Assembly (NCBI GenBank): GCA_003241815.1
Contig: QBLV01000001.1
Location: 1 to 47,510, forward strand
Source of the DNA: Hyphomicrobiales bacterium
GTDB taxonomy: Bacteria > Pseudomonadota > Alphaproteobacteria > Rhizobiales > Beijerinckiaceae
Reading direction: 5' to 3'
Length of the DNA: 47,510 bases
A program made the position numbers and the translations under genes. Below are positions 2,628-13,650 of this stretch, piece after piece. Numbering within the stretch: the stretch's first letter is position 1; each line of letters starts with the position of its first letter. Below the pieces are notes generated by a model. The model saw only the letters and a list, made by a program, of their open reading frames with translations. It was not told where the DNA came from and did not search any database.

Positions 2628-3386
2628 TCAGCTCTCGAGGGTCGCATAAACATCGCCCGAATTGGCGGCATGGGGAAGCTCGCGCAGATAGCCACCCATC
2701 GCCTCGGCGCTGGCAGGCTCGTCGAACTCCAGCCGCTGGCTTTCACCAAGCGCGAGATTGAAGCGATAGGGTCCGAGCGTCTCCAGGAGCGCGAGGCAGG
2801 CTTCGGCGACGTCGCGCTGGATTGTAGTGAACTCGAAGGAGATCACCGGGACCGGCCGGGTCAGCCCCGCCAGCACATGCGCCTCGAAGCCCTCGACATC
2901 GATTTTGAGCAGATTCGGCATGCCGTGCCGCGCGATCAGCGAGTCGAGCGTGGTGCAACGGACGGCGATCTCGTGATCCCAGACCTGATCGGCCCAGCCG
3001 TCGGCCTCGGCGGCCGCACCGATGAACGCGTCCGAGGCCGTCGAGACGGTTGGGTTGGCGCTGTTGATCCGCAGCGTGATTGAGCCGTCATGGTCGCCGC
3101 AGGCCGCCTCGACCAGGGTCACCTGTGCATCGCGGCCATGAATCAGTCGCAGCACCCGGGCCGGGCCGGGCTGCGGCTCGAGCGCGACGACGCGCGCGCC
3201 GAGACGGCGGAAGGACGAGACGCGGTCCCCGACATGGGAACCGATATCGAAGGCGAGATCTCCCGGCCGCAGGAAGCGGCCATAGAGCGTATCCATCGCA
3301 GCGTTGCGAACCGCATCGCCGTGATAGACGCGCAGCGAATGCGACAGCGCCTTGGCTGTGCCCTTGGGATAGATCGGAGCATTCAT
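2628..3386 (-). CDS. FkbM-family SAM-dependent methyltransferase
   Basis: A 252-residue class I methyltransferase of the FkbM type, which usually O-methylates sugars or small metabolites. The SAM-binding loop is LAFDIGSHVGDR (residues 45-54), followed by the acidic end of strand 2 at VVALEPQ. The family-typical KIDVEGFEAHVL motif appears near residues 161-172. Its ATG overlaps the stop of mdoH (ATGA), indicating translational coupling. Since MdoH makes periplasmic glucan backbones, this enzyme could modify the glucan or its precursor, but that is inference, as known glucan substituents are mainly phosphoglycerol and succinyl groups. The true substrate is not visible from sequence. Confidence 0.85.
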   Translation of the reverse strand: MNAPIYPKGTAKALSHSLRVYHGDAVRNAAMDTLYGRFLRPGDLAFDIGSHVGDRVSSFRRLGARVVALEPQPGPARVLRLIHGRDAQVTLVEAACGDHDGSITLRINSANPTVSTASDAFIGAAAEADGWADQVWDHEIAVRCTTLDSLIARHGMPNLLKIDVEGFEAHVLAGLTRPVPVISFEFTTIQRDVAEACLALLETLGPYRFNLALGESQRLEFDEPASAEAMGGYLRELPHAANSGDVYATLES

Positions 3387-5233
3387 GCGCGCTGCCTATC
3401 AGAGATCGCCACGAGCTCAGCCGGAGGCTCGAAATCCTCGGGGATGCCGCAGAGCCCCCGGCGCGCGAACCATGCGCCCAACGCCGGCAGCGCGGTCGCC
3501 ATCGCGAACGGGACTGCCAGCAGATAGCCCGCCGTCAGCGGGAGAGACCAGAGCAGAACGGCAGGCGACAGCACGATCAGCGCCCCGAACAGATAGGTTG
3601 CAAACAGCAGATGCGGCCACAGGCCGGCGAAGGCGGTGGCGAGCGACAGCGCATGGGCATCGCGCGCCTGCCCGTTCCAGCCGATCCGCGCGCGGCCGAA
3701 CAGCAGGCCGACCATGAACAACGTCGTCCGAAAACTCGAGACCGCGCCCTGCAGGAAGGCGAAGACAACCTCGATGACAGCCGAGACGACGAAGCGCGCA
3801 GCCCCGCCATAACGCTTCACGCCATCTCTGCGAAGGAGGATGTCAGCGAAACCCGCCAGCTTGGGCGAGAGATACATGGCCAGGAACAGCAGATAGACGC
3901 CGGCCGCGAGACCTGCGGGGTAGCCCTCGATGCCTCGATCCTCGACGACCTTGAGCGGCAGCAGTGCGATCATCAGTGTCCAGGCTGGCAGGCCAAGAAA
4001 CATCAGCACCGCCCAGAACAGTTGGAAACGGCTCATGGGCCGCAGGCCCGGAAGATCGAGCAGTTTGAGATATTGCAGATTCCCGAGGCACCAGCGCAGG
4101 TCGCGTTTGGCGAAATCGAGCATCGTCGGCGGGTTCTCCTCCCAGCTGCCCATTTCCTGCGGCAGCACCCGCACCTCGTAACCGGCGCGGCGCATCAGCG
4201 TCGCCTCGACCTGGTCGTGACTCATCACCGCGCCGCCGAGCGGCGGGCCGCCGGGCAGCACCGGCAGATGGCAACCCTCGCGGAACGGCGCGATCCGGAC
4301 CATCGCGTTGTGCCCCCAGAACGGGCCGCAATCGCCGATCCACCAGGCCGAACCCATCGTGTAGGGCCGCATGCCCTGGCGCATCCCGAACTGGAAGACG
4401 CGCGCGAAGGCGGACCGGCTCGGCATGCCGACGACCAGGCTCTGCAGGATGCCAAGCTTGGGATAGGCCTGCATCATCCGCGTCAGCTTCACGATCGCCT
4501 CGCCCGACATCACGCTGTCGGCGTCGAGCGGCAGCATCACCTCGTAAGCGTCGCCCCAGCGCTCGCAGAAATCGCGGACATTGCCGGCCTTGAAGCCGGC
4601 ATTGTCGCTCCGCCGGCGATAGGTGATGCGCCCATCCTCGCCGGTCTCGCGCTGCCATGCGGCGGCAAGGCGTTCTTCGGCCGCCACAACGGCGGGATCA
4701 TCGCTGTCCGACAGCACAAAAAAGTCGAACCTGTCGCCCTCGCCGGTGGCATCGAGGCTGTCTTTGACCACGCGCAGTCGCTGGAAAGCGCGGGCGGGAT
4801 CCTCGTTGCGCAGCGTCATCAGGATTGCGCTGCGGATCGCGAGCGGCGTCGGCTGATCGCCCGCCGTAGCGAAGGGCGCGACGCGCTCCATCCCGTCATC
4901 GACGCCATGCAGCAGCCAGAACCCGATCACCGCATTCCAGAAGCCGAGCACGGTCCAGGGCGCACCGAACAGGAAGGCGACGAAGATCGCGCCATCCGCC
5001 ACGGTCCAGCCGCCGGCGCCAAGCACACGCGACAGCCCATAAAGCAGCGCCGCCAGCGTCGCGAGGTTCACCGCGAGAACGAGACGGCGCCGCGTCGCCA
5101 GCACCGCTTCCGACTGCAGCCCGGCCGGCGTCAGCCCCGGCAGCGCAAGCGCCGCATCCGGCACGGCAAGCCCTTGCGCCGCCGGCTGGAACGTGGTCGG
5201 AGCGGGGCGCTGGTTCATGGCGGTCTCTGTCAT
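3383..5233 (-). CDS. mdoH: Glucans biosynthesis glucosyltransferase H
   Basis: Inner-membrane family-2 glycosyltransferase that elongates beta-1,2-linked osmoregulated periplasmic glucans from UDP-glucose. The 616-residue product has two N-terminal membrane spans near residues 50-110, a cytoplasmic catalytic domain and several C-terminal spans. Catalytic landmarks are FVLSDSDDP, LPLDADSVMSG, SHDQVEATLMRRAGYEV and RDLRWCLGN (the counterpart of the QxxRW motif). It is shorter than enterobacterial OpgH because the N-terminal cytoplasmic extension is reduced. No opgG, the usual partner, is in the window. The start at 5233 is uncertain: an in-frame ATG at 5218 is also possible. The gene diverges from the dehydrogenase gene at 5300, with only 66 bases between them. 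Confidence 0.92.
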   Translation of the reverse strand: MTETAMNQRPAPTTFQPAAQGLAVPDAALALPGLTPAGLQSEAVLATRRRLVLAVNLATLAALLYGLSRVLGAGGWTVADGAIFVAFLFGAPWTVLGFWNAVIGFWLLHGVDDGMERVAPFATAGDQPTPLAIRSAILMTLRNEDPARAFQRLRVVKDSLDATGEGDRFDFFVLSDSDDPAVVAAEERLAAAWQRETGEDGRITYRRRSDNAGFKAGNVRDFCERWGDAYEVMLPLDADSVMSGEAIVKLTRMMQAYPKLGILQSLVVGMPSRSAFARVFQFGMRQGMRPYTMGSAWWIGDCGPFWGHNAMVRIAPFREGCHLPVLPGGPPLGGAVMSHDQVEATLMRRAGYEVRVLPQEMGSWEENPPTMLDFAKRDLRWCLGNLQYLKLLDLPGLRPMSRFQLFWAVLMFLGLPAWTLMIALLPLKVVEDRGIEGYPAGLAAGVYLLFLAMYLSPKLAGFADILLRRDGVKRYGGAARFVVSAVIEVVFAFLQGAVSSFRTTLFMVGLLFGRARIGWNGQARDAHALSLATAFAGLWPHLLFATYLFGALIVLSPAVLLWSLPLTAGYLLAVPFAMATALPALGAWFARRGLCGIPEDFEPPAELVAISDRQRA

Positions 5234-5299: not shown

Positions 5300-6322
5300 A
5301 TGGCGCGAACCGACACGGCGCAGGAGCTAGAGCCGGCATTTCCGTCCAACGCAAGCGCATCCGCGACGGCGCTTTGGTATGTCGCTCCGCGTGAATGCGC
5401 CCTGAACGCCGAAACCCTCCCCGCGCTCACCGCACAGGACTGCCTCGTCCGCACGCTTTGGAGCGGCATCAGCCGTGGCACCGAGCGCCTCGTCTTCGAG
5501 GGCCGCGTTCCGGTGGGCGAATATGAGCGCATGCGAGCTCCTTTCCAGCAGGGCGATTTCCCCTTCCCGGTGAAGTACGGCTACTGCGCCGTGGGCGTCG
5601 TGGAGGCAGGGCCTACAGCGCTGCTCGGCGAGACTGTGTTCTGCCTGCATCCCCATCAGGACCGCTTCATAGCGCCCACCAACAGACTGACGCGGGTCCC
5701 GTTATACGTCCCAGCCAGGCGCGCGGTTCTCGCCGCCAACATGGAAACCGCTCTCAACGCGCATTGGGACGCTGGCTCCGGCCCGGCCGATCGCATCGTC
5801 GTGATCGGCGGCGGCGTGCTCGGCCTGCTCGTTGCGTGGCTTGCGGCCAGGCTGCCGGGTGCCGAGGTGACGCTCGTCGATATCGAGCCCGCCCGCGCCG
5901 GGCTCGCGGAGGCACTGGGCTTCCGCTTCTCCCTGCCCGAAGATGCACCTCGGGAGGCCGATATCGTCTTTCATGCCAGCGCATCGGCTCCGGGCCTGGC
6001 CACTGCCATCGCCGCCGCAGGCTTCGAGGCCCGCATCGTCGAGCTGAGCTGGTATGGCGAGGGTACGGTCGCAGCCCCGCTCGGCGGCGCCTTCCATGCC
6101 AAGCGGCTGCAGCTGGTTTCCACCCAGGTCGGTGGCATATCGCCCTCGCGCCGGGCCCGCTGGGATTATGCCCGCCGCGCGGCTGCCGCCATGGCGCTGC
6201 TTGCCGACGAACGGCTCGATGCGCTGATCACGGAGGATATTCCGTTTGATGAGGCTGCCGCACGCCTGCCATCGGTGCTTGCCCCCTCATGGCATGGCCT
6301 GACGGCAGCGATCTGCTATTGA
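5300..6322 (+). CDS. MDR-superfamily (zinc-type) dehydrogenase lacking the usual zinc ligands, BchC-like
   Basis: A 340-residue medium-chain dehydrogenase/reductase. The Rossmann motif is IGGGVLGLL (residues 169-177), followed by the acidic TLVDIEP end that favours NAD(H). The catalytic-zinc region is altered. The position of the first cysteine reads SGISRGTE (residues 55-62), and the GHE motif is replaced by YGYCAVG (93-99), so the classical catalytic zinc site appears absent. This resembles the BchC branch and other GTE-containing members. The start was chosen at the ATG at 5300, preceded by GGGAGA; the reading frame is open much further upstream, but that part is antisense to mdoH. It is the first gene of a tight plus-strand run with the VOC, PTPS-like, glycosyltransferase and methyltransferase genes. 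Substrate unknown; a pterin- or pyrimidine-derived intermediate is inferred from the neighbours. Confidence 0.82.
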   Translation: MARTDTAQELEPAFPSNASASATALWYVAPRECALNAETLPALTAQDCLVRTLWSGISRGTERLVFEGRVPVGEYERMRAPFQQGDFPFPVKYGYCAVGVVEAGPTALLGETVFCLHPHQDRFIAPTNRLTRVPLYVPARRAVLAANMETALNAHWDAGSGPADRIVVIGGGVLGLLVAWLAARLPGAEVTLVDIEPARAGLAEALGFRFSLPEDAPREADIVFHASASAPGLATAIAAAGFEARIVELSWYGEGTVAAPLGGAFHAKRLQLVSTQVGGISPSRRARWDYARRAAAAMALLADERLDALITEDIPFDEAAARLPSVLAPSWHGLTAAICY

Positions 6323-6330
6323 GCGTCGAC

Positions 6331-6783
6331 ATGACCGTCTCCCGCACGCATCCCCGCCCGGCTCTGGTGCCGGAACTCAACATCACCGCGCTGCCCGCGA
6401 GCCTCGCCTTCTGGCGCGATCTGCTCGGCTTCCGCGTCCTCTACGACCGCCCCGAGCAGGGTTTCGCGGCGATCGAGTGCGACGGCGTCGAGTTCATGCT
6501 GGAGGAGTACGACACAGGACCGGCAGAACGGTGCTGGGAAACCGGCCCGCGCGAAAAACCCTATGGGCGCGGCATCAATTTCGAGATCATGGTCAAGGAT
6601 GTCGACGTTCTGCTCGCCGCGCTGAGCCAGGCCTCATGGCCGCTCTTCTTCGGACCGGAACAGCGCTGGTACCGGATCAGCGAGACCGAAGAGACCGGCG
6701 TGCATCAATGTCTCGTGCAGGATCCGGATGGCTATCTTTTGCGTTTATCGCAGCCGATCGGCCGCAGGCCGCGCGCGCTCTGA
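6331..6783 (+). CDS. VOC-fold protein (glyoxalase/bleomycin-resistance type)
   Basis: A 150-residue vicinal-oxygen-chelate protein of the bleomycin-resistance branch. Signs are the N-terminal LVPELNIT...FWRDLLGFRVLYDRPEQGF, the mid-domain INFEIMVKDVD and the closing QDPDGYLLRLSQPIG. These proteins either bind metal and catalyse small-molecule chemistry or sequester a drug. I start it at the ATG at 6331, 8 bases after the dehydrogenase stop. An in-frame ATG at 6289 would make it overlap that gene. The tight spacing makes it part of the same operon as the PTPS-like, glycosyltransferase and methyltransferase genes. It may be a pathway enzyme or a self-protection protein for the product, or a passenger. 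The family call is good; the function is not known. Confidence 0.78.
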   Translation: MTVSRTHPRPALVPELNITALPASLAFWRDLLGFRVLYDRPEQGFAAIECDGVEFMLEEYDTGPAERCWETGPREKPYGRGINFEIMVKDVDVLLAALSQASWPLFFGPEQRWYRISETEETGVHQCLVQDPDGYLLRLSQPIGRRPRAL

Positions 6784-6831
6784 GCCTGTTTTTCATCCAG
6801 ACCAAGTCTCCATCCAGAATCAGGAACGCCC

Positions 6832-7233
6832 ATGTTCTCCGTCGAAGTCCGCGACCGCATCATGATCGGCCACTCTTTGCCCGATCCCTTCTTCGGCCCC
6901 GCGCAGAACATGCATGGCGCCACCTTCGTCGTCGATGTCGCCTTCTTCCGGCCAACGCTGACGAAGCAGAACGTCGTGGTCGACATCGGCGCGGCGCTCG
7001 ATGTCCTGAACAAGACGCTGAAGCCCCTGAATTATCAGAACCTCGACGCGCTGCCGCAGTTCACCGGCGTGCTGACGACCACCGAATTCCTCTGCAAATA
7101 CATCTTCGACGCCATGGCCACTGCGGCAAAATCCGGCGCGCTCGGTGAAGACGGCGCCGGTCTGGCGCGCATCCGGGTGACGCTGCACGAGACCGATCTC
7201 GCCCGCGCGAGCTTTGAGGGCGCGCTCGCGTGA
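6832..7233 (+). CDS. 6-pyruvoyl-tetrahydropterin synthase/QueD homologue with degenerate active site
   Basis: A 133-residue member of the PTPS/QueD T-fold family, which in canonical members converts dihydroneopterin triphosphate. Zinc-ligand candidates are His14 (IGHSL) and His28 (MHGAT). The third ligand, the second His of the usual HGH motif, is Ala30. The catalytic cysteine upstream of HGH also seems absent (FGPAQNMHG). The downstream VVDIGAALDVLNKTLKPLNYQNL block, LTTTEFLCKYIF and the conserved glutamate in VTLHETD are kept, so the pterin-binding pocket probably remains. It is thus related to QueD but unlikely to do its standard reaction. The stop overlaps the glycosyltransferase GTG start by three bases. 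A divergent enzyme acting on a different pterin or pyrimidine is the simplest reading. Confidence 0.83.
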   Translation: MFSVEVRDRIMIGHSLPDPFFGPAQNMHGATFVVDVAFFRPTLTKQNVVVDIGAALDVLNKTLKPLNYQNLDALPQFTGVLTTTEFLCKYIFDAMATAAKSGALGEDGAGLARIRVTLHETDLARASFEGALA

Positions 7234-8294
7234 GCGCGATCGCCTTCGCCATCCCCGGCGACATCGACCTGCCGACCGGCGGCTACGCCTATGATCGCAG
7301 GCTGCTGGCGGAGTGGCGGGATATGGGCATCGAGGCCCGGCATGTCGCCTTGCCGGGCTCTTTTCCGTTTCCGACGGAAGCCGACCTGTCGCAGACCGGC
7401 CGCGCGATCCTGTCTCAGCCCTTCGACGACACACTGCTGATCGACGGGCTGGCTTACGGCGCATTTCCTGAAGGGATTGCGGCGGGGCTCGCCGGTCGCG
7501 TCGTCGCGCTCGTCCATCACCCGCTCGCGCTGGAAACCGGGCTTGACGAGCAGAAGGCGCAACAACTGCTGGCACGCGAAACAGCAGCCCTGCGTTACAC
7601 CCGTGCCGTCGTGACCACGAGCCCGGCGACGAAGCAACTCCTGGTGAGGGATTTCGGCGTCGAGGCAGCGCGCATCACCGTCGCCGTGCCTGGCGTGGAC
7701 CCCGCCCCGCGCGCAAAGGGCGGACCGGCCGATGGTCCGCTGCGGCTCCTTGCCGTCGGCTCGATCGTTCCGCGCAAGGGCTATCATGTGCTGGTCGAGG
7801 CGCTCGCCACCTTGCGCGACAGGAAATGGCATCTGACCATCGTCGGAGCCGACGACCGCGCGCCCCAGACCATGCGCGATCTGACCGACCAGATCGCCGC
7901 AGCCGGGCTCACGGACCGCATCTTGCTTGCGGGAGCGGTGAACGACACGACGCTTGCAGCGGCCTATGACCGCGCCGACCTCTTCGTCATGCCCTCGCTG
8001 TTCGAGGGCTACGGCATGGTGCTGACCGAGGCGCTGGCACGTGGTTTGCCGATCATCTGCACGACCGGAGGCGCCGCAGCCGAAACCGCCCCCGACGCCG
8101 CCGCGCTGAAAGTCGCTCCCGGCGAGGCCGGCGCGCTTGCCAAGGCCCTCGCAAGCCTGATTGATGCGCCTGCGCAACGACGCGAATTGGCCGATGCCGC
8201 CTGGGTGGCAGCGGAGGCCCTGCCGCGCTGGCGCGATACGGCGGCGATCGTCGCCGGAGTTTGTCTGCCCGATGCCGGGCGAAAGGTAGGCTGA
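7230..8294 (+). CDS. Family-4-type glycosyltransferase
   Basis: A 354-residue GT-B glycosyltransferase of the GT4 type, transferring a sugar from a nucleotide donor. The C-terminal donor domain starts around residue 170 with LRLLAVGSIVPRKGYHVLVEAL and contains the E-x7-E motif EGYGMVLTE (Glu259 and Glu267). The N-terminal acceptor domain has IPGDIDLPTGGYAYDRRL and VHHPLALE. No transmembrane segment is seen, so it is probably cytosolic. It starts at a GTG that overlaps the stop of the PTPS-like gene (GTGA), and its own stop overlaps the methyltransferase start (TGATG), so three genes are translationally coupled. This couples sugar transfer to a pterin-type enzyme, as in pterin glycosides of cyanobacteria, although homology to those glycosyltransferases is not claimed. 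Confidence 0.87.
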   Translation: MSAIAFAIPGDIDLPTGGYAYDRRLLAEWRDMGIEARHVALPGSFPFPTEADLSQTGRAILSQPFDDTLLIDGLAYGAFPEGIAAGLAGRVVALVHHPLALETGLDEQKAQQLLARETAALRYTRAVVTTSPATKQLLVRDFGVEAARITVAVPGVDPAPRAKGGPADGPLRLLAVGSIVPRKGYHVLVEALATLRDRKWHLTIVGADDRAPQTMRDLTDQIAAAGLTDRILLAGAVNDTTLAAAYDRADLFVMPSLFEGYGMVLTEALARGLPIICTTGGAAAETAPDAAALKVAPGEAGALAKALASLIDAPAQRRELADAAWVAAEALPRWRDTAAIVAGVCLPDAGRKVG

Positions 8295-9136
8295 TGGGTG
8301 GCTTCTCCCCCGAATGGCTGGCTCTGCGGGAGCCTGCGGATCATGCGTCCCGCAATCCGCAGGTGCTGGCGGCCGTCGGCGCGCATTTCGCGTCCAAAGC
8401 CTCACTCACCGTGGTCGATCTCGGCTGCGGCGCGGGCTCGAACCTGCGCGGCTCCTATGCCGCCCTGCCCATGCGCCAGCACTGGACGCTGGTCGATCTC
8501 GATCCAAACCTGCTCGTGGCCACCCGCGAAAGGCTGGCGGACTGGGCCGACGAGGCTCGCGAGCAGGGCGAGGAGCTGGTGCTGGCCAAGGGCGATCACA
8601 TGATCACCGTCGATACCCGCCAGGCCGACCTGACCAAGGACCTCGAATGGGTGCTCGGCTGGCAGCCCGACCTCGTCACCGCCGCGGCCCTGTTCGACCT
8701 GACCTCGAAGCGCTGGATCGAACGCTTCGTCGCGGCGCTGACGAGCCAGCGGCTGCCGCTCTACACCGTCCTGACCTATGACGGCCGCGAAATCTGGCAG
8801 CCGCCCCACCCGGCAGATGCGCGAGTTCTGGCAGCGTTCAAGAACCACCAGCACGGCGAAAAGGGTTTCGGCCCAGCGGCCGGCCCGGACGCCACGGATG
8901 TGATGGCGGAGGCCTTCCGGAAATCGGGTTTCGCCGTCTCGATCGGCGACAGCGCCTGGCGGATCGGCGAGCAGTATGGCGAGCTGGCACAGACCCTGGC
9001 AAAGGGGATCGCCGATGCCGTGCTGGAAACCGGACAGATCGATGGCGCGACCGTCGCCGATTGGCTCGCGGCGAGAACGCAGTCCGCCGCCTCAGCCCTG
9101 GTCGGCCATCACGACCTCTGGGCGCGGCCGGTCTGA
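8294..9136 (+). CDS. Class I SAM-dependent methyltransferase
   Basis: A 280-residue Rossmann methyltransferase. The SAM-binding motif I is VVDLGCGAGSN (residues 40-50), followed by LVDLDPNLL as the acidic strand-2 motif and a QPDLVTAAALFDL motif IV-like segment. It resembles small-molecule methyltransferases; the acceptor cannot be read from sequence. I use the ATG at 8294, which overlaps the glycosyltransferase stop by one base; a frame extension back to 8261 would lie inside that gene. It is the last gene of the coupled run starting at 5300, converging with the cytochrome b561 gene only 20 bases downstream. It is likely to methylate the product of this cluster. Confidence 0.85.
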   Translation: MGGFSPEWLALREPADHASRNPQVLAAVGAHFASKASLTVVDLGCGAGSNLRGSYAALPMRQHWTLVDLDPNLLVATRERLADWADEAREQGEELVLAKGDHMITVDTRQADLTKDLEWVLGWQPDLVTAAALFDLTSKRWIERFVAALTSQRLPLYTVLTYDGREIWQPPHPADARVLAAFKNHQHGEKGFGPAAGPDATDVMAEAFRKSGFAVSIGDSAWRIGEQYGELAQTLAKGIADAVLETGQIDGATVADWLAARTQSAASALVGHHDLWARPV

Positions 9137-9156
9137 GCGGGAGGCCGCGCGCTCTT

Positions 9157-9735
9157 CTACCTCAAACCCGGCAGCATGCGGCGCAGCACGCCATCCCTAC
9201 GGATGATATGGTGGTAGAGCGCGGCCCCGACATGGGCGCAGGCCAGCAGCGCCATGACGATGGCGAGCTTGCCATGGACCGTCAGGACCGAGTTGGCGAG
9301 ATCTTCGTTCGGGGTTGCGATAGCTGGCAGATCGATCAACCCGAACACTTTGAGCGAGGGATAGAGCGAGATTCCGATCCAGCCCAGCAGCGGCACGACC
9401 AGAAGCAGGCCGTAGAGCGCCCAGTGCAGCAGATGCGAGCCCGCCTTCTGCCACCACAGCAGAGTTGGCTCGTCGGGCGGCGCGCCCCTGATCAGGCGGT
9501 AGGCCAGCCGACCCGCGACGAGCCAGAGCACGAGGAAGCCGAGAACCTTGTGCGAGCTGTAGAGTGCGTCGGTTAGCCCGTCCCAGACGTTCAGCGTATT
9601 GCCGCGATAGGTCATGGCGAGGCCGAGCGGCACCATGAACAAGACGGCGCCCGCCGTCGCCCAGTGCATGTGGCGGGCGGCCGCGCTGTAGACGGGGCGT
9701 GCCTCAACTTTGGTCACGGTGTCATGATGCTGCAT
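9157..9735 (-). CDS. Cytochrome b561 family membrane protein
   Basis: A 192-residue four-helix di-heme b-type cytochrome of the bacterial CybB family, carrying electrons between quinol and other partners in the inner membrane. Four helices carry the expected histidines: RHMHWATAGAVLF, SSHKVLGFLVLWL, HLLHWALYGLLL and TVHGKLAIVMALLACAHVGAAL. I choose the ATG at 9735, which has AGGGGAG about eight bases upstream, over a longer open frame beginning at 9792. It sits on the opposite strand between the methyltransferase and the GTP cyclohydrolase II gene, breaking what otherwise looks like one functional cluster. It may be an unrelated insertion. Confidence 0.9.
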   Translation of the reverse strand: MQHHDTVTKVEARPVYSAAARHMHWATAGAVLFMVPLGLAMTYRGNTLNVWDGLTDALYSSHKVLGFLVLWLVAGRLAYRLIRGAPPDEPTLLWWQKAGSHLLHWALYGLLLVVPLLGWIGISLYPSLKVFGLIDLPAIATPNEDLANSVLTVHGKLAIVMALLACAHVGAALYHHIIRRDGVLRRMLPGLR

Positions 9736-9894
9736 CAACCCTGCTCCCCTGCCATGCGTCTTCCGGCTTGCCGTACCGGTGACCACATTCATCCCGCGTT
9801 CAAGGTCCCGAGCCTATCGAGATCTCAAGCCTATACGGCCTCTTCATAAAATTGGATGGCTGCGCTGAAAGGGCGGGCAGAATCTTTGCGCGAT

Positions 9895-9920
9895 GGAACT
9901 GCCTTCGCCTCCAGCACGTT
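9895..9920 (+). promoter_or_regulatory. Candidate EcfG (general stress sigma factor) promoter upstream of ribA-like gene
   Basis: GGAAC at 9895-9899 and CGTT at 9917-9920 are separated by 17 bases, matching the alphaproteobacterial EcfG pattern GGAAC-N16/17-CGTT. It lies in the 296-base gap between the divergent cytochrome b561 and GTP cyclohydrolase II genes, about 110 bases before the latter. A match of this size could occur about once per window by chance, so the call is modest. I see no FMN-riboswitch-like element in this gap. Confidence 0.4.
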
Positions 9921-10031
9921 TGATGGAAAATGATGCAGCGTTGATCTATATCGACGACGCACCCGTACAAGCATAACCTCCCGCCGGGCCCAGGCCTTCC
10001 TGAGCGCAAGCCCAATCTGACGGACACTTCC

Positions 10032-11159
10032 ATGCCTCAGTCGCGTACGCTGTTCGGACGGCCACTCGAGACGAGCCTCGTCGCGGTTGATCGGGCCATC
10101 GCCGAATTTCGGTCCGGCCGCCCGGTTCTGCTGCGGGCCGGCGAGAAGCTGGCGCTGGTGCTTTCGGCTGAACTGGCGGAAGGCGACCTTGTCGGCCGCC
10201 TCGACGGCCTCGCCGGCGGCAAGGCTCATCTCGCGCTGAGCGCGGCCCGGCTGCGCCGGCTCGGGGCCAAAAGCCGTGCCGAGACGGGTATTCTCGCTAT
10301 GCCTTCGCTCAATCTGGCGCGCGTCGAGATGCTGGCACTCAAGACCGACGGCAAGGTCGATGCCCCCGTCGCGCCGGCCTCCGTCATCGATGACGCCGCC
10401 CTCGAACTGGCCCGTCTCTCGCTCGTGCTGCCGGCAGCCATCGTCGTGCCGGTTACTGCCACAGCCATCGCCGGCGAACCGCTGGTCGAGGTCGAAATCG
10501 ATGCGCTGAACGGCTACCGCGCCGCCCAGGCTGCGACGCTGACCATCGTCGGCCGCGCTCCCGTGCCACTGGAAGGTGCTTCCGAGACCGAATTCGTCGT
10601 CTTCCGCGGCGGCGAGGGTCTGCGCGATCAGGTCGCGATCATCGTCGGCAAGCCCGATCTCAACGAGGCTGTTCCGGTCCGTCTGCATTCGGCCTGCCTG
10701 ACCGGCGACCTGTTCGGCTCGCTGAAATGCGATTGCGGCGACCAGCTCCGCGAGACGGTGCAGTGGATGGCCGAGAATGACGGCGGAATCCTGCTCTATC
10801 TCGACCAGGAAGGCCGCGGCAACGGCATCTCCAACAAGATGCGTGCCTACAAGCTGCAGAGTCAGGGCTGGGACACCTACGACGCCGACGAGGTCCTCGG
10901 CTTCGATCTCGACCAGCGCCATTTCGATTTCGCCGCGACGATGCTGAAGCAGCTCGGCGTGACCAGCATCATCGCGCTGACGAACAACCCGCTGAAGGTC
11001 GGAGCCATTAAGGCCTCAGGCGTCGAGGTCACGGCGACACAGCGCGTGCTCGGCCGGCCGAATGTCCACAATGTCCGTTATCTCGCCTCCAAACGCGATC
11101 GCGCGGGCCATTCCATCGACATGGACGCGCTGATGGCGCGGGCCGCGCCGAAGGATTGA
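10032..11159 (+). CDS. ribA: GTP cyclohydrolase II with degenerate N-terminal DHBP-synthase-like domain
   Basis: Opens GTP to the 2,5-diamino-6-ribosylamino-pyrimidinone phosphate used for riboflavin and other pyrimidine or pterin products. In the C-terminal half (about 186-375) the three zinc cysteines are Cys222, Cys233 and Cys235 in HSACLTGDLFGSLKCDCG, followed by DQEGRGNGISNKMRAY, GWDTYDAD, LDQRHFDFA and LTNNPLK. Two positions differ from classical RibA: Ala for Glu in HSxCLTG and Asp for Arg before QEGRG. The N-terminal 170 residues look like a RibB domain without its acidic catalytic loop, so only GTP cyclohydrolase activity is expected. The start is the ATG at 10032. It could serve ordinary riboflavin synthesis or be the entry enzyme for the adjacent PTPS-like, glycosyltransferase and methyltransferase genes. 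Confidence 0.88.
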   Translation: MPQSRTLFGRPLETSLVAVDRAIAEFRSGRPVLLRAGEKLALVLSAELAEGDLVGRLDGLAGGKAHLALSAARLRRLGAKSRAETGILAMPSLNLARVEMLALKTDGKVDAPVAPASVIDDAALELARLSLVLPAAIVVPVTATAIAGEPLVEVEIDALNGYRAAQAATLTIVGRAPVPLEGASETEFVVFRGGEGLRDQVAIIVGKPDLNEAVPVRLHSACLTGDLFGSLKCDCGDQLRETVQWMAENDGGILLYLDQEGRGNGISNKMRAYKLQSQGWDTYDADEVLGFDLDQRHFDFAATMLKQLGVTSIIALTNNPLKVGAIKASGVEVTATQRVLGRPNVHNVRYLASKRDRAGHSIDMDALMARAAPKD

Positions 11160-11229: not shown

Positions 11230-13650
11230 ATGTCGAACGCCACTGGCCCCGGATCTGGATTGCCGCCGACGCGCTGGCCCCTCGCCAGCGTCGTCTGCAT
11301 CGTCACCCTGGCCTGGCTCACTCTGTCCTGGCCCTGGCTGTCGGGAATCGTGACCATCCCTTGGGACGCCAAGGCGCATTTTCAGCCGCAACTCCAGTTC
11401 CTGGCACAGGCCTGGCACAGCGGCCACTCTGCGTTCTGGACGCCTTATGTCTTCGCCGGTTCGCCGCAGATCGCCGATCCGCAATCCCTGATCTTCTCCC
11501 CACCCTTTGCGCTGATCGCGGCGCTCGAGCCGGCGCCCGGTTTCAGGCTGGGCGACTTCGCGAGGCTGGGCACGCTCCTGGCGGGCGCGCTCGCCTTCAT
11601 CGTGCTGTTCCGCGACCGCGACTGGCACCCGGCCGGCGCCGTCGTCGCGGCATTGGCCTTCGCCTTCGGCGCGGCCGCCGCCTGGCGCATCCAGCATGTC
11701 GGTCAGGTACTGAGCCTCGGCTATTTCGCGATCACCCTTTGTCTTGTTTCACGGGCATTGGAACGCGGTTCGATCGCGTATGGCTTTGCAGCAGGCCTCG
11801 TGGCGGGTTTCATGGTGCTCGGCCGCGACCAGGTCGCGCTGCTCGGCGTGTATGTCCTGGCGGGACTGGTCATCGCGGCGATTGCGATGGCGCGCCAGCC
11901 CTTGCAGGCGCTACGCGCGAGCCTCCTTCCCCTGCTCGCAGGTGGACTGGGCGCCATCCTCGTCGCGACGGTGCCGATCCTGCTGACGGCCTTGCTGGCG
12001 GAAGAGTCCAATCGCCCGGTGATCGACCTGATCGGCGCCGGCAAGGGCTCGCTGCACCCGGCCGCCCTGCTGACCGGCCTGTTCGCCAATCTTTACGGCG
12101 CGGCCGGCCCGCTGGAGAATTTCTGGGGCGCGCCGAGCCCGGCCTTCGAGGCGCGCTTCGGACCCCAGGACCTCTACCTCGCCCGCAATATGAGCCAGCT
12201 CTATCTCGGCCTGATCCCGATGGGGCTGGTGCTGACCATCGGCATTGTGCGCGGCGCGCTGCTGCAGCGCGAGATCGTCGCATTGAGCCTCGCGGCGCTG
12301 ATCGTGTTGATCTTCGCGCTCGGTCGCTTCACGCCGGGCTTCCAGCTGTTGTTCGAGCTGCCCGGCGTCTCCTTCTATCGCCGTCCGGCCGATGCGCTTT
12401 TCATCCTGGGCGCGCTGCTGGCGTTGCTGGGCGGCTACCTCACCCATCTCGTCATGACCGACACCGCCCCCCGCGCGCGGCCCTGGCAGCGCGCCGTCGA
12501 GATCGCGATATTCGTCGGCGCGCTGGGTCTCGCGCTCTGGCTCGCCTGGACGGTGGGGCGCCTGTCGGTCGCCGTCGTACCGCTGGTCACCGCGCTGCTC
12601 TGCGGCGTTTTGTGCATCGGTGCGCTGGTCGCCGCGCGCGGCTTTGCCCTGCGTGGCGCAAGGCTTGCCGCCGCGATCGTGCTCGCCGTCACGCTGACGG
12701 TGGATCTCTCGGTCAACAACGGGCCCAGCGAATCCACCGCTTTGCCCTCGCAGGATTACGACGTGTTGCGGGCCGACAGCGGCAACGAAACCATCGCCCT
12801 GCTCAAGCGCGAGACCGCCCGCACGGCAGGCCCCGACCGGCGCGACCGCATCGAACTCGCCGGCATTGGCTTCCACTGGCCCAATGCCAGCCTCGTCCAT
12901 CAGCTCGACAACACGCTGGGCTACAATCCGCTCAGGCTCGGCCTTTACAGCAAGGCGACCGGGGCGGGCGACCATGTCGCTTTGCCCGATCAGCGGACCT
13001 TCGCGGCCCTGATGCCGAGCTATCGCTCGCTGCTCGCCGACATGCTGGGCCTGCGCTTCATCGCCACCGGCGTGCCCGTCGAACAGATCGACAAGACCCT
13101 CAAGCCCGGCGACCTCCTCCCGATCGCGCGCACTGCGGACGCCTATGTCTACGAGAACCCGCGCGCCCTGCCGCGCGTGCTGCTGGTGACGAAGGCCGAG
13201 ACTGCCGATTTCGACGCGATCCTGGCGACCGGCCAGTGGCCGCAAGGCTTCGACCCGCGCCAGAGCGTGCTGCTCGACCGCGCTGTGGCGCCCCTGCCGC
13301 TGGGCCCGATCGCGACCGGCCGGCCCGCGAGTGGCCTGACCGCGCCGGGCACGAGCCCGCAAGGAACAGTGCGCATCGCCGACTACGGCACCACCGAGGT
13401 CACCCTGAAAGTCGACGCGCCGCAAGGCGGCTATGTCGTCCTCAACGACGTCTGGCACCATTGGTGGCAGGTCGAGATCGACGGCACGCCTGTGGAGATA
13501 TTGCGCGCCAACGTTCTGTTCCGCGCCGTTGCCGTGCCCCCCGGGCGCTCGACGGTTCGGTTCGTGTTCCAGCCGTTCCGGGGGCTGTTTCAAGATATCG
13601 GGACGCGCCTGCGGGCAGGGCGAAATCCTACCAGCCGCGTTGCGCCTTGA
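11230..13650 (+). CDS. YfhO-like polytopic membrane protein
   Basis: An 806-residue membrane protein with about a dozen hydrophobic helices in the first 480 residues and a C-terminal extracytoplasmic domain. The architecture and the end of the protein fit the YfhO/GT-C group: a YVVLNDVWHHWWQVEIDG segment followed by ANVLFRAVAVPPG and VRFVFQP is typical of these proteins. An early acidic-aromatic motif, PWDAKAHFQPQLQFL, lies in the first extracytoplasmic loop, where GT-C enzymes keep catalytic residues. YfhO members are linked to glycosylation of cell-wall polymers or to lipid-linked sugar transfer, but the substrate here is unknown. A very long second frame on the same strand (11361-13679) is a codon-bias shadow. 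The 3' end overlaps the small secreted protein gene on the other strand by 23 bases. Confidence 0.78.
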   Translation: MSNATGPGSGLPPTRWPLASVVCIVTLAWLTLSWPWLSGIVTIPWDAKAHFQPQLQFLAQAWHSGHSAFWTPYVFAGSPQIADPQSLIFSPPFALIAALEPAPGFRLGDFARLGTLLAGALAFIVLFRDRDWHPAGAVVAALAFAFGAAAAWRIQHVGQVLSLGYFAITLCLVSRALERGSIAYGFAAGLVAGFMVLGRDQVALLGVYVLAGLVIAAIAMARQPLQALRASLLPLLAGGLGAILVATVPILLTALLAEESNRPVIDLIGAGKGSLHPAALLTGLFANLYGAAGPLENFWGAPSPAFEARFGPQDLYLARNMSQLYLGLIPMGLVLTIGIVRGALLQREIVALSLAALIVLIFALGRFTPGFQLLFELPGVSFYRRPADALFILGALLALLGGYLTHLVMTDTAPRARPWQRAVEIAIFVGALGLALWLAWTVGRLSVAVVPLVTALLCGVLCIGALVAARGFALRGARLAAAIVLAVTLTVDLSVNNGPSESTALPSQDYDVLRADSGNETIALLKRETARTAGPDRRDRIELAGIGFHWPNASLVHQLDNTLGYNPLRLGLYSKATGAGDHVALPDQRTFAALMPSYRSLLADMLGLRFIATGVPVEQIDKTLKPGDLLPIARTADAYVYENPRALPRVLLVTKAETADFDAILATGQWPQGFDPRQSVLLDRAVAPLPLGPIATGRPASGLTAPGTSPQGTVRIADYGTTEVTLKVDAPQGGYVVLNDVWHHWWQVEIDGTPVEILRANVLFRAVAVPPGRSTVRFVFQPFRGLFQDIGTRLRAGRNPTSRVAP

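Follow-up and report, generated by a model that had tools for sequence, protein, structure and literature searches.

The window analysed here is the whole 47,510-nucleotide stretch of contig QBLV01000001.1 (assembly GCA_003241815.1; G000:C111:1-47510 in our labelling, with C114, C177 and C193 denoting other contigs of the same assembly), and its closest named relatives among the GTDB matches listed are Bosea genomes. It carries an operon for an MDR dehydrogenase (ADH), a T-fold protein of the PTPS-IV type, a GT4 glycosyltransferase (GT4) and a class I methyltransferase-like protein (MT), flanked by a GTP cyclohydrolase II (RibA) and a divergent MdoH-type membrane glucosyltransferase (Table 1). 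The pathway that these genes represent is real, conserved and largely undescribed. We put at about 0.5 the probability that the window carries the Bosea form of a GTP-derived pathway that is widespread and uncharacterised, in which a tailored diaminopyrimidine conjugate would be finished at the membrane by either MdoH or a device built on a CDP-alcohol phosphotransferase.

A conserved operon around the PTPS-IV gene

Relatives of the window's PTPS-IV protein were present in 39 and absent from 111 of 150 sampled genomes of the window's order (own genome included) and were present in 27 of 398 genomes of the phylum. A pattern search of GTDB contigs matched at least 592 stretches, 587 of which encode a relative; the best 80 of these 587, all named, were combined with 38 loci from the order and 8 plasmid loci into a set of 126. 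Two pairs of loci in this set are the same sequence (L037/L092 and L039/L129). Gene content was counted in the 94 loci that reach 17 kb (93 without duplicates), the 32 shorter loci being dropped. Fifteen further loci outside the set were read separately, and 13 of 20 matching regions in the plasmid sample were read, the PLSDB gene tables being incomplete. A search of viral contigs found no relatives, and an Rfam scan of six sources for riboswitches found no family reaching its gathering score.

ADH, PTPS, GT4 and MT form a conserved operon. The PTPS and GT4 reading frames share 4 nt and those of GT4 and MT share 1 nt; these overlaps, the coordinates and strands of the genes, and the position of RibA after one opposite-strand gene (cytochrome b561, 9157-9792) were as given in the initial annotation. 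All four genes were found in 103 of the 126 loci and kept their order and strand in 102 of the 103 (101 of 102 without duplicates), the exception being Palleronia (L163). Every one of the 38 order loci other than the window's own has ADH, 37 have GT4 and 36 have MT; the loci with gaps, L039 and L071, are interrupted by contig ends. The corresponding counts among the 94 longer loci were 94 for PTPS, 92 for MT, 91 for GT4 and 88 for ADH. GT4 and MT are one fused protein in 4 of the 15 further loci, a sign that the two may act together. A check of whether the grouping described in the initial annotation recurs found the genes together in the window's order and also in other Pseudomonadota and in Actinomycetota. 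Plasmid stretches with most of the gene set came from Streptomyces fungicidicus, Microbacterium, Agrobacterium, Peteryoungia, Neorhizobium, Methylosinus, Palleronia, SC52 and Thiodictyon, and an unannotated Arthrobacter plasmid record has ADH-PTPS-GT4 only, by similarity.

Pfam and NCBIfam matches bore out the PTPS, GT4 and GTP cyclohydrolase II families assigned earlier. The dehydrogenase had been called BchC-like, which held at low score: it reached 55.5 bits against TIGR01202 (BchC; cut-off 291), far enough under the cut-off to rule out a true BchC. Pfam matches of MT were all sub-threshold (24.3 bits, cut-off 30), and a PDB sequence search with it gave no strong match; its motif, predicted fold (pLDDT 96.8) and conservation speak for a real methyltransferase-type gene.

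The window's PTPS-IV gene is the sole PTPS-family gene of the assembly. The motif FGPAQ, adopted as the PTPS-IV signature from PMC5445326, occurs in the window protein and in 143 of its 145 relatives. In the alignment to the window protein, the second His of the HGH motif was replaced by Ala (A30; HGA) in 145 of 145 relatives, and this Ala was likewise invariant in an alignment of 20. The catalytic Asp-His dyad has lost its His in all 145 (the position next to it is Asp in 2 of them), and the catalytic-Cys pattern CxxxHG/CxxxxxHG was found in 1 of 145. Kept in all 145 was E120, which we take to be the pterin-anchoring Glu from its place in rat PTPS and QueD. With the zinc His and the dyad His missing from every relative aligned, the protein is unlikely to function as a PTPS or QueD; binding of a 2-amino-4-oxo ring is likely, to judge from the aligned residues. 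The earlier proposal of a PTPS-like enzyme acting on pterins is favoured by the anchoring Glu and weakened by the lost zinc and catalytic His. Public annotation names the relatives 6-carboxytetrahydropterin synthase. The window protein scored 30.2 bits against the QueD model of NCBIfam (cut-off 89), and on this score together with the residues we reject a QueD role. Its closest solved structure by sequence was PDB 3d7j, SCO6650 of Streptomyces coelicolor (E 3.7e-38), reportedly described by Spoonamore, Bandarian and co-workers in 2008 as having no zinc, no triad and no PTPS activity. The Streptomyces plasmids L158, L164 and L172 have PTPS-IV but no further gene of the pathway; genes for cupin and MBL-fold proteins lie nearby, and PTPS-IV possibly has a second role there.

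Association with riboflavin-type precursor enzymes

RibA lies near the PTPS-IV gene in the window. It scored 485.7 bits against NCBIfam PRK08815 (cut-off 464) and has three Cys, QEGRG and a Tyr in place (SACLTGDLFGSLKCDCGD, YLDQEGRGNGISNKMRAY), which we take to be the zinc ligands and the catalytic Tyr. Full-length RibA was present in 23 of the 39 PTPS-IV genomes compared to 4 of the 111 others (Fisher, 5e-13), and a stand-alone RibD_C reductase in 30 of 39 compared to 1 of 111 (2e-22); these and later Fisher p-values take genomes as independent and so are too small. The score cut-offs (RibA 240, MdoH 465, RibD_C 154 and CDP-alcohol 113 bits) were chosen after gaps were seen at 246.8/201.2, 465.7/328.8, 154.6/99.8 and 113.3/96 bits, respectively. 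The lone PTPS-negative genome with a stand-alone RibD_C, G123, is 56% complete and congeneric with a carrier. RibA and RibD_C were also paired away from PTPS, by megabases in G065 and by about 57-60 kb in G070 and G106, so their co-occurrence with PTPS is not a matter of close linkage alone. The tie between RibA and the PTPS gene, drawn earlier from their position, is therefore also statistical and holds when the two are unlinked. By locus, RibD_C was found in 54 and RibA in 46 of the 94. RibD_C scored 109 bits against the archaeal diaminopyrimidine reductase TIGR01508 (cut-off 186), lower than its own ribD_Cterm score of 135, and its lack of a deaminase domain would fit the archaeal step order.

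Three GTP-cyclohydrolase-II-family domains are encoded in the assembly: the window RibA, a more distant one on C114, and a RibBA on C177 (L072; 443-residue frame). In the RibBA, the GTP cyclohydrolase II half is without zinc cysteines, as if the DHBP synthase half alone works. The sole RibD_C of the assembly lies in a 422-residue open frame, as for ordinary RibD. Three creatininase-family genes are present in the window genome, and with them a BrbF-type riboflavin route is possible there. Short GTP cyclohydrolases II, in frames of 220-258 residues, were seen in L037 (= L092), L107-L110 and L118; two of them that were aligned have CDCY and HEGRG replacing CDCG and QEGRG.

Parts of this system have known counterparts. 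The toxoflavin route and the cyanobacterial pterin glycosides have in common with it a RibA-type enzyme, or a pterin with a glycosyltransferase; their gene sets presumably differ from the one here, as compared by gene families. A second S. coelicolor protein, SCO6655, is said to have been found by Spoonamore, Bandarian and co-workers to be a GTP cyclohydrolase II that forms a formyl compound, with Met replacing Tyr; SCO6650 and SCO6655 were reportedly described as single proteins and with no pathway. The RibA of the S. fungicidicus cluster has a SCO6655-like Met in place of the catalytic Tyr, with a creatininase gene adjoining, whereas the Bosea RibA has the ordinary Tyr. By analogy, a formyl intermediate followed by a formamidase is a possibility there. 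Creatininase genes were found in 4 of the 94 loci. They also lie beside Tyr-type RibA in L070, L177, L180 and L182, so the idea that they are confined to Met-type RibA was dropped and the formyl route is a possibility seen in one Streptomyces locus. A creatininase-family AFRPP formamidase has a precedent in Sinorhizobium (PMC9478397). As set out in the same source, the BrbF and archaeal ArfA/B/C riboflavin front end is alike in its formyl intermediate, creatininase-family deformylase and stand-alone reductase logic; unlike there, the genes here sit with a glycosyltransferase, a methyltransferase and membrane enzymes, and the window cluster is without a creatininase. Expression of SCO6655 opposes predicted flux (r -0.61), according to PMC2853524, as does that of SCO2687, the other GTP cyclohydrolase II (r -0.52), which gives weak support to a non-riboflavin role for SCO6655.

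The initial annotation called the pathway a candidate undescribed one, and part of it is already in print. AGeNNT cluster-node 62, with 561 sequences, places PTPS-IV (FGPAQ) next to PF00925 (GTP cyclohydrolase II family) and PF01872 (RibD_C) (PMC5445326). The PTPS subtype is the same as here; of the two neighbours the window has RibA, and stand-alone RibD_C is seen in other loci. The accessible text of that paper labels PF00925 as FolE2/GTP cyclohydrolase I, offers no pathway and names no GT4, MT, MdoH or CDP-alcohol partners. The accessible text of a 2026 review of bacterial pterins (PMC13259868) had no match for GTP cyclohydrolase II, PTPS or lipid, and among the papers listed none was found that describes the pathway, by title or abstract start, with most subscription journals outside the coverage.

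Two proposed alternative membrane devices

The genes named in the initial annotation are real, but the divergent MdoH was overlooked though it belongs with them. Cluster-type MdoH was present in 32 of the 39 PTPS-IV genomes compared to 2 of the 111 others (Fisher, 2e-23) and in 76 of the 94 loci. A tree of 53 rows split it from MdoG-linked MdoH (100/100), and a score gap separates the two kinds (466 compared to 329 bits). MdoH/OpgH of osmoregulated periplasmic glucan synthesis is of the same enzyme family (NF003963); unlike in that system, the window MdoH lies in a separate clade, has no MdoG beside it and is of a kind found in genomes without MdoG (9 of the 34 with cluster-type MdoH). The window genome has four MdoG genes, all on contigs other than the window's, and its second MdoH adjoins an MdoG on C193. 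A PDB sequence search with the window MdoH gave no strong match. Its clade, and its presence where MdoG is absent, mean that a role in ordinary periplasmic glucan synthesis is not the default reading, but an MdoG-type MdoH does stand beside a CDP-alcohol-type cluster in L181, L182 and L183. These three loci and L177, all from another class of the phylum, have a family of median length 518 residues beside the CDP-alcohol-type cluster, which Pfam identifies as MdoG in L181 only.

Of the 94 longer loci, 18 lack MdoH; a CDP-alcohol phosphotransferase was found in 7 of these and in 0 of the 76 with MdoH. Flippase-like and sulfatase-like genes, each in 4 of the 94 loci, accompany the CDP-alcohol enzyme in some, and its sequences carry the CDP-alcohol active-site motif. 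Genome-wide, at 113 bits or more, the enzyme was present in exactly the 7 PTPS-IV genomes without cluster-type MdoH and in 0 of the 32 with it, so that none of the 39 has both devices and none has neither; the chance of such a split, with seven placed at random among 39, is 6.5e-8. The complementarity was first noticed in the loci, and 4 of the 7 CDP-alcohol genomes come from that set; the three with an unlinked gene and the 32 negatives are new. In these three (G055, G092 and G116) the CDP-alcohol enzyme is unlinked to PTPS and lies beside a sulfatase-like gene. Families f5 and f42 hold both device kinds, and five weaker CDP-alcohol matches were all in PTPS-negative genomes. This mutual replacement suggests that the last step takes place at the membrane. 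The parts that the initial annotation did not count in the pathway are thus the clade-specific MdoH, cytochrome b561 and a stand-alone RibD reductase, or else the CDP-alcohol phosphotransferase with flippase-like, sulfatase-like and sometimes creatininase genes.

One PTPS-negative genome, G111, keeps a cluster-type MdoH and a full-length RibA. In its locus (L205, G111:C12:182600-186000) an ADH stump, read by eye, abuts a RibD_C remnant beside the intact MdoH, as if the middle of the cluster was lost; it is apparently a decayed copy.

Proposed pathway and alternatives

We infer each chemical step, the product and its location from the genes and residues above, the later steps from protein families alone. 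RibA would open GTP to 2,5-diamino-6-ribosylamino-4(3H)-pyrimidinone 5'-phosphate; in some lineages it would perhaps give a formyl compound, from which a creatininase-family formamidase would remove the formyl group. The stand-alone RibD_C, where present, would convert the ribosyl to a ribityl chain with no deaminase step of the kind in bacterial riboflavin synthesis, retaining the 2-amino group. PTPS-IV would then hold the 2-amino-4-oxo ring through its kept Glu for a reaction other than that of PTPS or QueD, the MDR dehydrogenase would oxidise or reduce the side chain, and GT4 and MT would put a sugar and a methyl group on the same molecule. Two devices would be interchangeable in finishing the conjugate at the membrane: the window has a dedicated MdoH-type glucosyltransferase for this, and the other device would be a CDP-alcohol phosphotransferase accompanied by a sulfatase-like protein and in some cases by a flippase-like one. 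The product named in the initial annotation, a glycosylated, methylated pterin or pyrimidine, is a fair guess. Less likely than not, it could open a new class of GTP-derived molecules that sit at the membrane and serve in redox or signalling. Such a molecule would be a ribitylamino-pyrimidine or pterin with sugar and methyl groups, joined to glucose by MdoH or, in other lineages, to a phospholipid or phospho-alcohol by the CDP-alcohol enzyme and flipped outward, where it would work with cytochrome b561.

Several observations weigh against this pathway. The window assembly (90.3% complete) has no stand-alone RibD_C, nor do 9 of the 39 PTPS-IV genomes, and 16 of the 39 have no full-length RibA, so that other GTP cyclohydrolases must serve there or RibA is not needed. 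Because the GTP cyclohydrolase part of the RibBA is degenerate, the window RibA may also be the cell's GTP cyclohydrolase II for riboflavin, a circumstance that the initial annotation named as counting against the pathway. Internal stops were present in 1 of the 23 RibA matches (G064), in the RibD_C matches of G004 and G100 and in the CDP-alcohol matches of G055 and G037. The PTPS-negative genomes G099 and G130 (L211, L212) carry a CDP-alcohol enzyme and sulfatase-like pair. Among the 15 further loci, 9 had the CDP-alcohol enzyme and 0 a cluster-type MdoH; neither device was found within the stretches of the other 6 (L173, L174, L175, L184, L185 and L187) or within those of Palleronia, SC52 and Arthrobacter, whose whole genomes were not searched. 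PTPS-IV was the only gene of the set in 3 of the 13 plasmid regions covered. The creatininase of S. fungicidicus scored higher against MftE (141 bits) than ArfB (37), both under the cut-off.

The operon and RibA could instead make a soluble glycosylated, methylated pterin, with MdoH and the CDP-alcohol enzyme mere neighbours. The PTPS fold with its pterin-binding Glu, the presence of GT4 and MT, and the existence of cyanobacterial pterin glycosides (PMC13259868) fit this; it is unlikely, since PTPS-IV is missing catalytic residues, the linked precursor enzymes are of the riboflavin type, and whole-genome complementarity of the devices, with 3 of 7 CDP-alcohol genes unlinked to PTPS, is not expected of neighbours. 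Were RibA and RibD_C simply extra riboflavin genes, with ADH-PTPS-GT4-MT and MdoH serving another pathway such as the decoration of periplasmic glucans, the degenerate RibBA would explain why RibA is needed anyway, and some loci of another class in the phylum do have an mdoG-mdoH pair flanking the cluster. We consider this quite unlikely, as almost no genome without PTPS-IV has a stand-alone RibD_C and the cluster MdoH is not tied to MdoG.

A route to F420 or another deazaflavin cofactor would share the ribitylaminopyrimidine precursor. PMC5041015 includes an unpublished remark placing PTPS-IV in F420 synthesis, and close to the S. fungicidicus cluster is a gene annotated as a PPOX class F420-dependent oxidoreductase. 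The route is improbable: the annotations of the stretches covered, with the PLSDB tables incomplete and whole genomes outside the search, name no F420 biosynthesis gene. That the PTPS gene is a misread queD would suit its being the only one of its family in the assembly and the public naming of its relatives, yet the sub-cut-off score and the loss of both His residues leave next to no room for it, and no que gene was named in the annotated stretches read, que genes not having been searched genome-wide.

PTPS-IV is numerous (cluster-node 62 in PMC5445326; more than a quarter of the order genomes here) and is often annotated as a queuosine enzyme against its residues. A defined gene set with two interchangeable membrane devices turns this orphan family into a testable pathway, which would house both the odd PTPS homologue and the odd GTP cyclohydrolase of S. 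coelicolor. A membrane-linked product would be a new kind of lipid or glucan conjugate built on a pyrimidine or pterin.

Table 1. Genes in and around the PTPS-IV operon of the window
Feature	Position	Strand	Evidence
FkbM-family methyltransferase, possible member	2628..3386	-	FkbM match in 45/94 loci; also within some CDP-alcohol-type clusters
MdoH/OpgH-like membrane glucosyltransferase, separate PTPS-IV-linked clade	3383..5233	-	NCBIfam MdoH NF003963 910 bits, cut-off 884
MDR dehydrogenase (ADH), first gene of the operon	5300..6322	+	zinc-binding alcohol dehydrogenase in the annotation of relatives; low-scoring BchC likeness; in 38/38 non-self order loci
VOC/glyoxalase-fold gene lying within the operon but not conserved with it	6331..6783	+	3/94 loci
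PTPS-IV (FGPAQ) protein, T-fold homologue	6832..7233	+	Pfam PTPS 71.6 bits; one zinc His and catalytic His lost, putative pterin-anchoring Glu kept
GT4 glycosyltransferase	7230..8294	+	Pfam Glycos_transf_1 107 bits; in 37/38 non-self order loci; MT-fused in 4 loci
Class I S-adenosylmethionine-dependent methyltransferase-like protein (MT), conserved unnamed family	8294..9136	+	in 36/38 non-self order loci
Cytochrome b561, frequent cluster member	9157..9792	-	Pfam PF01292 89 bits; 59/94 loci
GTP cyclohydrolase II (RibA, PRK08815 type)	10032..11159	+	zinc Cys and catalytic Tyr intact; Pfam GTP_cyclohydro2 156.3 bits
Large membrane protein, doubtful member	11230..13650	+	PMT_2 weak, below cut-off; 24/94 loci

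The VOC gene had been listed as part of the pathway in the initial annotation; its rarity among the loci rules it out as a pathway enzyme and marks it as a local insertion. The cytochrome b561 gene between MT and RibA suggests a redox role.

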